From Clostridiales bacterium (GTDB taxonomy: Bacteria > Bacillota > Clostridia > Christensenellales > Aristaeellaceae), in the NCBI GenBank assembly GCA_024695415.1, contig JAILIE010000091.1, positions 1-33,932 on the forward strand: a stretch of DNA of 33,932 bases, read 5' to 3'. Made by a program: the position numbers and the translations under genes. Each line of letters opens with the position of its first letter. Positions within the stretch are counted from its first letter, which is position 1. Below are positions 22,664 through 25,452 of the stretch, piece after piece. The notes below the pieces were generated by a model that was not told the DNA's origin, made no database searches, and was given only the letters and a program-made list of their open reading frames with translations.

Positions 22664-23701
22664 ATGGTTTATACTTTCGCGCTGGTCAAACATGCGAATA
22701 TTCGTTACCGTGAATCTCTTTGCCGTCTGAGCCGTTGCGAATTATCCGCCATGCTGTCCGCTCTTTCCCTGGATTGTGAGATCCGTACGGAAACCGCCGG
22801 CGGCGCGGATTTCCTGTCGTTTGAATCTGATCCCCTCACCCCCGCGCAACTTTCCTTCCTCTCCCGCCACAGTTCCCTCGCGTTCATGGCGGAAAAGCAG
22901 GGGGATCTCCTGCGACCCCTGGATGTTTCATTCTCCGGCTATCTGACCGAGGATCTCCCGGAAGTTTTGAAATACAAAGGCAAAACCGCCGTCCCCTTCA
23001 CGAAGCTGATGCTGAACATGGCGCTTTCCCTGTCCCCCTTCGCGTTTTCCCTCCGGCCTGTGACCGTCCTGGATCCTCTGTGCGGGAAGGGAACGACCTG
23101 TTTCTGCGCCCTCCAGAACGGTTTCAGCGCCGTCGGAATGGACCAGGATACGAAGGCGGTCCGGGAAGCGGCGGACTATTTTGAACGTTTTCTTCAGTTT
23201 CATCAGCTGAAACACAGGCTGGTGCGCAGATCGGAAACTTGCGGAAAGGAATCCATTCCCGTTTCCGAATTCATCTTCGCCGACACGAAAGAAAACTATC
23301 AGGCCTCCGATACGCGTTCCCTGGTCCTGGCCACCGGGGATACGGCGCTCACCCCCGCCCTGATCCGTAAGCGGCCGGCCCACCTGATCGTCGCCGACCT
23401 GCCTTACGGCATTCAGCACGCGCCGCAAACCGGCCGGAAACCCGGTTCCTTTGCCGGCATGCTGGAAAGGGTGCTTCCCGCCTGGAGGAAATCCCTCCTG
23501 CCCGGCGGAATCATCGCCCTCAGTTTCAACACCCTGACCCTTCCCGTCCACACCGTGGTCCGGGAGCTGGAAAAAGCGGATTTTACCCCGGTTGAACGTG
23601 ACTGCTGCACGCATCTTCGCCACGAGGTCGAACAGGCTGTTGTCCGAGATGTGGTTTTTGCCGTAAATGAACCTTTCCGCAAGGAGGAAGACCCCGAATG
23701 A
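22664..23701 (+). CDS. TRM11/TrmG10-like RNA methyltransferase
   Basis: A 345-residue Rossmann-fold SAM-dependent methyltransferase. The N-terminal part (about 1-85) is a divergent substrate-binding domain. YKGKTAVPFTK (104-114) and SAM motif I VLDPLCGKGTT (135-145) are clear. Motif IV is DLPYG (245-249), similar to the DPPYG of Trm11/TrmG10, which modify guanine 10 of tRNA; canonical NPPY is not present. RNA guanine N2-methylation is the likely reaction, but the target is uncertain. AAGAGGAAG precedes the ATG. The stop overlaps the rho start by ATGA (23698-23701), so the two genes are translationally coupled. Confidence 0.8.
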   Translation: MVYTFALVKHANIRYRESLCRLSRCELSAMLSALSLDCEIRTETAGGADFLSFESDPLTPAQLSFLSRHSSLAFMAEKQGDLLRPLDVSFSGYLTEDLPEVLKYKGKTAVPFTKLMLNMALSLSPFAFSLRPVTVLDPLCGKGTTCFCALQNGFSAVGMDQDTKAVREAADYFERFLQFHQLKHRLVRRSETCGKESIPVSEFIFADTKENYQASDTRSLVLATGDTALTPALIRKRPAHLIVADLPYGIQHAPQTGRKPGSFAGMLERVLPAWRKSLLPGGIIALSFNTLTLPVHTVVRELEKADFTPVERDCCTHLRHEVEQAVVRDVVFAVNEPFRKEEDPE

Positions 23702-25452
23702 CAGAAAATGAACTGAAAAGCATGACGGTTGTACAGCTGAGAAAGGTCGCCCGTGACGCGGGCGTCGTTCTCGGTGCCGGAATAGATAAGGCAGGTATTA
23801 TCGCCAAGATCCTCGAGCACGGTGTTTCTTCCGCGCCCGCTGCCGCGCCCGCGGCCCCGGCGCCGGAACCCGCGTCCAGTGAGCCGAAATTCCAGGCTGC
23901 GTGGCATAACTCCGACGCGCCGCGCTATAATTCGCGCCCTGCCTACCAGTATAACCCGGCTCCGGCCCGCCCCGCGTGGCAGAACACGACGCCGGCCGGC
24001 AATCCCATGTCCCGCGAACAGCAGCGGGTCCAGCCGGTCCGTCCCGGTACGTTTACGCCCCGTTTCGGCCCTGCCGCGTCCGCTCCGGCATCTCCTGCCC
24101 AGGAATCCGCCGCGCCCGCGGAGACACCGCATACGCCGGCCGCTTCTCCCCTGCCCGAGCGCAGGATCGGGGAATCCTCCGGCTATACGCACCGTATCTC
24201 CGCCGTCTATACGCCGGCCTATACCGCGCCGTCGCATACCGCGCCCGCGGAATCCTTTGCCCCTCCGGCCCAGGATACGGCCGCTCCGGCCCTGACGCTC
24301 GAGGAACTGCTCGCTTCCGGCGAGTATGAAGAGGGCGGCGGCGTCCTGGAACTGCATCCGGACGGATACGGGTTCCTGCGCGCTCCCGGGTTCCTCCCGT
24401 CCACGAAGGACGTATATGTTTCCATGGCCCAGATCCGCCGCTTCGGACTGCGAACCGGCGACAAAATCGAAGGAAAAATCCGTCCCCAGCGTGAAGGGGA
24501 TAAATACGCCGCGCTGCTCTATATCTCCAGCGTCAACGGCGTGCCGGAGGAAGAGGCGTTCTCCCGTCCCCTGTTCGACGAACTGACGCCCGTGTATCCG
24601 ACCCGGAAGATTTCCCTGGAATCCGCGGACGGAAAATCCATGAAGGATATGCGGCTGATCGACCTGATCGCACCGATCGGGTTCGGCCAGCGCGGACTCA
24701 TGCTCTGCCCGCCCGGCACCGGGAAAAACGAGCTGATGCAGCATTTTGCCCAGATTATCTGCCAGAATTATCCCGAAGCGCATGTCCTGATGCTGCTCGT
24801 GGATATCAATCCGGAGGACGCCACGCTGATGCGGGATTCCGTGCCCTGCACGGTCCTGTCCTCCAGCTTCGACCAGGCGCCGGAGGTCCATCTCCGGCTT
24901 TCGGAGATTGTGCTGGAGCGCGCGATGCGCCTGGTGGAACAGAAAAAGGACGTCGTGCTCCTGGTAGACAGTCTGACGCGCCTGGCGAAGATCTACACAA
25001 CGGCCGCCGCCCAGCAGGGCCGCAGCCTGCCCGGCATGGTCAATCCCGCCAGCCTGTTCCGCGCCAAAAGGATGTTCGGCGCCGCCCGCGCCTGCAAGGA
25101 AGGCGGAAGCCTGACCGTCATCGCCGCGATGGATATCCTCACCGGCTCCAAGGTGGATGATTCGGTGGTGGAGGAATTCAAGGGAACCGCGAACATGGAG
25201 CTGACGCTGGACCTGAACGTGGCCCGCGCCGGAATCCGGCCGGCTCTGAACCTGCAGAACAGCTACACCAAGAATTCCGACCAGCTGCTGAACGACCGGC
25301 AGAAGGAAGGTCTTACCCTGATCCGCACCCTGCTGGGAAATTCCTCTTCCGCGGTGGCGATTCCGCAGTTGGAGTCCATGATGGATAAAGCGGAAACCAA
25401 CGACGAACTCCTTTTGAAAATGAAATCATGGTTCGCGCTGATGAATCGGTAA
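23698..25452 (+). CDS. rho: Transcription termination factor Rho, with substituted catalytic residues
   Basis: A 584-residue Rho homologue. The SAP-like Rho N domain is at about 4-42; a Pro/Ala/Tyr-rich low-complexity insertion at about 45-198; the cold-shock RNA-binding domain at about 212-282 (YGFLR, IRRFGLRTGDKIEGKIRP); the RecA-like ATPase follows. Walker A reads PPGTGKN, with Asn344 where Thr or Ser is expected. The usual DERP reads DINP (369-372), replacing the catalytic Glu and its Arg neighbour. The arginine-finger region reads ARAGIRPA, with Gly512 where the Arg is expected. Walker B LLVDS (Asp424) and the R-loop TGSK remain. Locus order matches standard rho. RNA binding is probably kept; ATP-driven termination is doubtful. 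The start has AAGGAGG. Confidence 0.9.
   Translation: MTENELKSMTVVQLRKVARDAGVVLGAGIDKAGIIAKILEHGVSSAPAAAPAAPAPEPASSEPKFQAAWHNSDAPRYNSRPAYQYNPAPARPAWQNTTPAGNPMSREQQRVQPVRPGTFTPRFGPAASAPASPAQESAAPAETPHTPAASPLPERRIGESSGYTHRISAVYTPAYTAPSHTAPAESFAPPAQDTAAPALTLEELLASGEYEEGGGVLELHPDGYGFLRAPGFLPSTKDVYVSMAQIRRFGLRTGDKIEGKIRPQREGDKYAALLYISSVNGVPEEEAFSRPLFDELTPVYPTRKISLESADGKSMKDMRLIDLIAPIGFGQRGLMLCPPGTGKNELMQHFAQIICQNYPEAHVLMLLVDINPEDATLMRDSVPCTVLSSSFDQAPEVHLRLSEIVLERAMRLVEQKKDVVLLVDSLTRLAKIYTTAAAQQGRSLPGMVNPASLFRAKRMFGAARACKEGGSLTVIAAMDILTGSKVDDSVVEEFKGTANMELTLDLNVARAGIRPALNLQNSYTKNSDQLLNDRQKEGLTLIRTLLGNSSSAVAIPQLESMMDKAETNDELLLKMKSWFALMNR

Follow-up and report, generated by a model that had tools for sequence, protein, structure and literature searches.

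Rho is a textbook ATP motor. The window analysed here, a 33,932-nucleotide stretch of DNA from a Clostridiales bacterium (assembly GCA_024695415.1, contig JAILIE010000091.1, positions 1–33,932), contained a rho gene whose product combined a degraded ATP site with an intact RNA-binding domain. The window Rho was composed of a low-complexity N-terminal region, an OB domain (PF07497) and a RecA-type ATPase domain (PF00006). It was aligned to Escherichia coli Rho (chain 1pv4_A), whose numbering is used throughout; in the following features, the E. coli residue is given before that of the window Rho.

23698–25452, forward strand: rho open reading frame of 584 residues with a degraded ATP site, an ATG start and no internal stops
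23899–23910, forward strand: AWHN, a short motif of the low-complexity N-terminal stretch (pattern [AP]W[HN]N)
24061–24072, forward strand: RFGP, a second motif of the same low-complexity stretch, from a motif scan of the family Rhos
24337–24546, forward strand: Rho RNA-binding (OB/cold-shock) domain, intact (PF07497, 102 bits, cut-off 27, residues 214–283)
24649–25266, forward strand: RecA-type ATPase domain (PF00006, 59 bits, residues 318–523)
24715–24729, forward strand: Walker A, with K181 replaced by Gly340, K184 kept as Lys343 and T185 replaced by Asn344 (alignment)
24802–24810, forward strand: D210 kept, catalytic E211 replaced by Ile370 and arginine valve R212 by Asn371 (alignment)
24967–24969, forward strand: Walker B D265, kept as Asp424 (alignment)
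25132–25134, forward strand: L320 replaced by Asp479 in the gamma-phosphate/bicyclomycin cavity (column comparison across the family)
25150–25152, forward strand: R-loop K326, kept as Lys485 (alignment)
25231–25239, forward strand: R353 replaced by Gly512 and adenine-stacking F355 by Arg514 (alignment)
25270–25272, forward strand: arginine finger R366 replaced by Lys525 (alignment)

The window Rho scored 416 bits against NF006886, above the cut-off of 315, and 408.9 bits against the curated equivalog model TIGR00767, below the cut-off of 509. The AlphaFold2 monomer model (ATPase-domain entry) had a predicted local distance difference test score (pLDDT) of 88.2, and its best structural match was E. 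coli Rho, with a template modelling (TM) score of 0.91. The gene was a vertically inherited rho ortholog at its own locus, and its product was Rho by descent.

The ATP contacts of E. coli Rho have been described in detail (statements from the literature, here and below, follow the available excerpts of the cited papers). The adenine is sandwiched by F355 and M186, the gamma-phosphate is bound by K181, R212 and R366, T185 contacts Mg, and E211 is the catalytic glutamate (PMC11718236); R366 has been named the arginine finger (PMC11718236, PMC11829017). In addition to the replacements given above, M186 and R347 of E. coli Rho corresponded to Glu345 and Leu506, while R269 (Arg428) and K336 were kept. 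A preliminary description of the window had read the motifs PPGTGKN, DINP and ARAGIRPA as they stand, and its assignments of Asn344 to T185, Ile370 to E211 and Asn371 to R212 held in the alignment; Gly340, noted there as standing in place of a usual Lys, aligned to K181. It had taken Gly512 for the arginine finger R366 and Leu506 for R353, whereas the alignment matched these residues to R353 and R347, respectively, and the change at R366, to lysine, was milder. The substitution at R366, the loss of F355 and the aspartate at position 320 had escaped it. Its statements that the cold-shock domain, the Walker B aspartate, the R-loop and the reading frame were undamaged agreed with the features above.

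The E211A mutation of E. coli Rho abolished hydrolysis, while ATP binding and oligomers survived; the E386A mutation, its equivalent, gave no transcript release (PMC4499133). The D265N and R366A mutants lost ATPase activity without losing RNA binding (PMC5379054). By its residues at E211, R212 and R366, the window Rho would fall outside the ATP-dependent Rho terminators, despite its Walker A lysine and Walker B aspartate.

The substitutions were common to the genus of the window (g1; genera, families, genomes and loci are given by working labels). Rho was found in 36 of the 45 genomes of g1, including all 13 that were at least 90% complete; a 37th match, in G009, was a distant ATPase-like protein. 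E211 was absent from all 36 Rhos, being replaced by Val (25), Met (4), Leu (3), Ile (2) or Ala (2), and position 353 was Gly in every one. Position 366 was Lys in 34 and Arg in 2. K181 was replaced by Asp, Asn, Gln, Gly or Glu, with an acidic residue in 15 of 36, F355 was lost in 34 of 36, and T185 was neither Thr nor Ser in 15 of 36. The TIGR00767 scores of the same Rhos ranged from 398 to 429 bits, and none of the 45 genomes had a match over 509.

These losses were unevenly distributed between the domains. For the columns that were invariant in canonical Rhos, retention in g1 was 96% in the OB domain (25 columns), 47% among the ATP contacts (12 columns) and 73% in the rest of the ATPase domain (89 columns). 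Of 131 invariant columns, 30 had switched in this genus; 29 of the switched columns belonged to the ATPase domain, and 8 were newly fixed to another residue. The loss was concentrated in the ATPase domain compared with the OB domain (29/101 vs 1/26 columns, p 0.008). The median ratio of nonsynonymous to synonymous substitution rates (dN/dS) of the ATPase domain was 0.125 (181 pairs), within the range of medians of the canonical genera (0.026–0.160). The altered ATPase domain of g1 is under purifying selection.

The comparison was extended to 168 Rhos from 47 genera of one GTDB family, in which L150, truncated at a contig end, was excluded from counts. A total of 140 family genomes were matched; G137, G084 and G181, with fragments or a weak match only, were not taken in. 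All 71 complete Rhos of the 31 canonical genera had K184, E211, R353 and R366 intact. In the 16 degraded genera, at least one of the four was lost in 95 of 96 Rhos and at least two in 80, so that the distinct Rho class anticipated by the preliminary description was borne out and was wider than one genome. K184 was lost in 25, E211 in 59, R353 in 93 and R366 in 73 of the degraded-genus Rhos. The combination of lost residues varied: g16 had lost only K184 of the four; g15 had lost R353 and R366 and kept E211; g12 had lost R353 along with D210 and R269; and g14 had also lost K184 and E211. The residue that was lost first differed between genera. The Rho counted in the 96 with all four residues kept was L127 (G111, degraded genus g30), in which F355 was replaced by Ala and R-loop K326 by Ile; it appears to represent an early stage of degradation by another route. 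K181 had also turned acidic in 5/5 Rhos of g44, 5/5 of g15 and 4/6 of g48. Genome G091 (g48) carried two different degraded Rho genes, L137 and L151, on separate contigs, a pair that is a duplication or a mixed bin.

In RpoB trees (70 rows; second tree, 76 rows with bootstraps, 10 canonical genera left out), a single clade held all the degraded genera represented, 15 in number; g3 was off the trees, as RpoB was not found for G046. The canonical genera g20, g23 and g29 were nested in the clade as the sister of g35 (branch 100/100). Canonical g8 stood at the clade base, where the branch separating it from the rest was weak (89/56). Assuming that lost residues were never regained, at least 7 separate first losses were needed on the first tree and at least 8 on the second. 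The RFGP motif was present in 92 of 96 degraded Rhos, in 12 of 12 nested canonical Rhos (g20, g23, g29) and in none of the 60 Rhos of the 28 remaining canonical genera; the corresponding counts of [AP]W[HN]N were 61 of 96, 12 of 12 and 0 of 60. Both motifs were absent from every further Rho compared from outside the clade. The RFGP motif thus appears, by its distribution, to predate the ATP-site losses in the clade. All counted losses fell inside the motif clade, whose share of the branch length that was still canonical was 17% or 34%, depending on the tree; under one uniform rate, the chance of this was 3.6e-6 or 1.9e-4, in a test that was post hoc and in which the single origin of the motif means that cause cannot be shown.

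The degraded Rhos seem to have met two fates, stabilisation and decay. The ATPase-domain dN/dS medians were low in g10 (0.112), g15 (0.138) and g14 (0.173), as in g1, and higher in g25 (0.307), g12 (0.342), g30 (0.509), g48 (0.521), g44 (0.525) and g7 (0.913); the ratios were calculated by the Nei-Gojobori method, which saturates in deep pairs, so that high values may be overstated. The decay-like pattern of several genera had not been foreseen in the preliminary description. The g7 Rhos (L157–L162) had lost the segments of Walker A, the Q-loop and the R-loop, together with some 80 residues at the C terminus, and their N-terminal AWHNP stretch was well conserved. Five g7 genomes still carried rho with full or near-full frames, and a sixth had it cut by a contig end; the structure model of one g7 Rho still matched Rho (TM 0.70). 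Lost catalytic residues were also observed in L470, L471, L474, L476 and L478 (f14, g63), L477 (f28), L467 (f8) and L468 (f5). These Rhos were without RFGP, several had altered OB residues, and their genomes were 91–99% complete. By their sequences, the degradations in f14, f28, f8 and f5 appear separate from that of the window's clade. A loosening of Rho runs through the order, in which the window's clade is special by its retained OB domain, its motif and the renewed constraint in some genera.

We consider it rather likely that the g1 protein is an RNA-binding Rho without motor activity, since E211A-type mutants lose hydrolysis (PMC4499133) and D265N and R366A mutants keep RNA binding (PMC5379054). 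Its probable role in g1 is that of an RNA-binding ring, not of a motor. In this mechanism, the ATP-hydrolysing site of the clade's Rho would have been lost repeatedly, with different residues lost first, and in g1 the product would have been stabilised as a folded, motor-less Rho. RNA would be bound by the OB domain and probably by the R-loop as well, whose K326 and K336 are kept, and the protein may form a ring. It would be unable to hydrolyse ATP or to translocate and would not release transcripts by the classical route. Instead, it would hold RNA as a static clamp or serve as a scaffold, with partners perhaps determined by AWHN and RFGP in the disordered N-terminal region, motifs that would have been present before the ATP site was lost. 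The ring kept by selection, perhaps non-translocating, that the preliminary description had predicted is the best-supported reading for g1, given the shared substitutions, purifying selection, intact OB domain, own locus and lack of a second Rho; the anti-termination role also suggested there gained no support. A broader scheme is speculative and, on balance, doubtful: gain of the motif would have removed the need for ATP hydrolysis, the site would have been lost at least 7–8 times, some genera (g1, g14) would have arrived at a stable, translocation-independent regulator that clamps nascent RNA and in this way still controls RNA or RNA polymerase, and in g1 and g48 Asp320 would have refitted the pocket to a new ligand or a new chemistry.

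Several observations weigh against the loss of motor activity in g1. ATP-contact columns were not switched significantly more often than other invariant ATPase-domain columns (6/12 vs 23/89, p 0.098), which suggests that the whole ATPase domain drifted and not the pocket alone. Selection was relaxed in sister genera. K184 and D265 were kept in g1 and Asp320 was gained, which could mean a residual or altered nucleoside triphosphatase (NTPase). Rho-less Bacilli lose their coding purine bias (PMC13323073), and in 60 genomes, represented by one 20-kb stretch each with a crude open reading frame caller and with kinship handled by genus means only, the unadjusted purine content was 0.505 in 40 degraded and 0.509 in 20 canonical genomes (p 0.33). 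Adjustment for guanine-plus-cytosine content, by contrast, gave a point in favour of a motor-less Rho: at the genus level, the coding purine content of degraded genera was reduced by 0.010 (standard error 0.0043, permutation p 0.0098), the same direction as that reported for Rho loss (PMC13323073). Intrinsic-terminator-like sites at gene ends were no commoner in degraded genera (57/336 vs 28/151, p 0.70), although losing Rho termination might have raised their number. Both the purine and the terminator read-outs are weak.

Three other explanations were weighed against an RNA-binding Rho without a motor. An error of sequencing, assembly or binning, or a spare canonical Rho elsewhere, would be compatible with the state of the window's genome, which comprised 2.16 Mb in 143 contigs and was only 80% complete; it was rejected as vanishingly improbable, since the same pattern was found in 36 genomes, some of 1–2 contigs (G001, G002, G021, G031). 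The window's genome had a single rho copy, and a second, canonical Rho, for which the preliminary description had proposed a search, was found in none of the 45 g1 genomes, where all other TIGR00767 matches were below 51 bits. The relatives' genomes were Clostridia bins, many of ruminant-gut origin. A second explanation is decay, in which classical Rho termination became dispensable in the clade and the gene is drifting to loss, at a stage that differs by genus. Such a course would suit the high medians of g7, g44, g48 and g30, the truncated g7 Rhos, the unrelated f14, f28, f8 and f5 Rhos with lost catalytic residues and, in several, eroded OB domains, and the other families of the order that appear Rho-less; of the 201 high-quality genomes in the order, 38 gave no Rho match at E 1e-20. 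It fits poorly with the medians of 0.11–0.17 in g1, g10, g14 and g15, with the presence of Rho in every near-complete g1 genome, and with the open frames and the retained OB domain and motifs, while the high ratios may be inflated by saturation; we regard decay as unlikely.

The third explanation, a rewired NTPase in which Asp320 took over from E211 as the catalytic carboxylate and Lys366 serves as a lysine finger, so that the motor persists, perhaps with another nucleotide preference, rests on position 320. This position was Asp in 36 of 36 g1 and 6 of 6 g48 Rhos, both without E211, so that a relocated carboxylate is conceivable, and Leu or Ile in 71 of 71 complete canonical Rhos, none of which was acidic there. 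A scan of columns 140–399 found no acidic residue other than Asp320 that had become fixed anew in the ATPase domain of g1, and position 320 lines the cavity beside K184 and the gamma-phosphate (PMC8828861). Asn stood there in 8 of 8 Rhos of the E211-keeping genera g25, g3, g9 and g33. A Lys at column 377, present in 36 of 36 g1 Rhos, was set aside as a g1 gain, being shared by g14 and part of g44. The kept K184 and D265 and the Lys or Arg at position 366 would suit a working site, whereas the losses of F355, T185 and R353 and the acidic residues at K181 would not. Moreover, 17 other E211-less Rhos had no acid at 320, and 3 E211-keeping Rhos had one. The usual acid at position 322 was gone in most g1 Rhos, so that the change may in part reflect a local shift of charge, an objection weakened by g48, which keeps this acid. 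Relaxed selection in g48 also speaks against rewiring. Taken together, rewiring is improbable, slightly more so than decay. Of the altered chemistry mentioned in the preliminary description, the lead from Asp320 stands, while the losses of F355, T185 and R353 speak against it. Insensitivity of the window Rho to bicyclomycin, also predicted there, is plausible.

The rho gene was preceded by one further feature, whose end overlapped the Rho start codon by 4 bases (ATGA), so that translational coupling of the two genes is likely.

22664–23701, forward strand: methyltransferase-like gene upstream of rho (PF01555, 27.9 bits)

In 35 of the 36 g1 loci, rho had a homolog of this gene beside it, as it did in several canonical genera; the gene was therefore rejected as a linked partner of ATPase loss. 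Downstream of rho, the window encoded DUF1385, PrmC and Sua5 proteins; a neighbourhood with DUF1385 and PrmC is usual for clostridial rho. Loss of NusG as a companion of the change was likewise rejected, as 26 of 30 genomes had NusG over the cut-off; the others were the window's incomplete genome (best 36 bits), G068 (no match), G091 and G055.

A study by Said et al. reportedly, by its title, bears on the dispute over whether Rho needs translocation to act on RNA polymerase. A clade in which the catalytic residues were removed many times while the RNA-binding fold and the gene were kept provides natural material on a motor-less Rho. It also cautions against reading an annotated rho as evidence of Rho-dependent termination. 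Searches of open-licence PMC full text found no description of a natural Rho with lost catalytic residues.

The window Rho shared with canonical Rho (E. coli, Bacillus subtilis, Thermotoga maritima; TIGR00767/NF006886) its orthology, OB domain, RecA fold, Walker A lysine, Walker B aspartate and R-loop, whereas its catalytic glutamate, arginine valve, arginine finger, R353 and adenine-stacking phenylalanine were replaced and it fell below the TIGR00767 cut-off. Mycobacterium tuberculosis Rho likewise has a large, poorly conserved N-terminal insert and is a weak motor; an earlier proposal had it acting independently of its motor, and its need for the motor has been disputed (PMC4499133). It differs in that E386, D440 and R541 are kept and ATP hydrolysis is needed (PMC4499133), and in its cavity only L320 is changed, to Met (PMC8828861). 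The phase-separating Rho of Bacteroides thetaiotaomicron and the prion-like Rho of Clostridium botulinum also have a long disordered N-terminal part, whereas loss of the ATP site is not mentioned for them in the available excerpts (PMC10284900, PMC4703818). Also alike were the laboratory ATPase-dead mutants E211A, D265N and R366A, in which equal residues are lost and RNA binding is retained. In contrast to these, the changes of the window Rho were natural, multiple and conserved over a genus.

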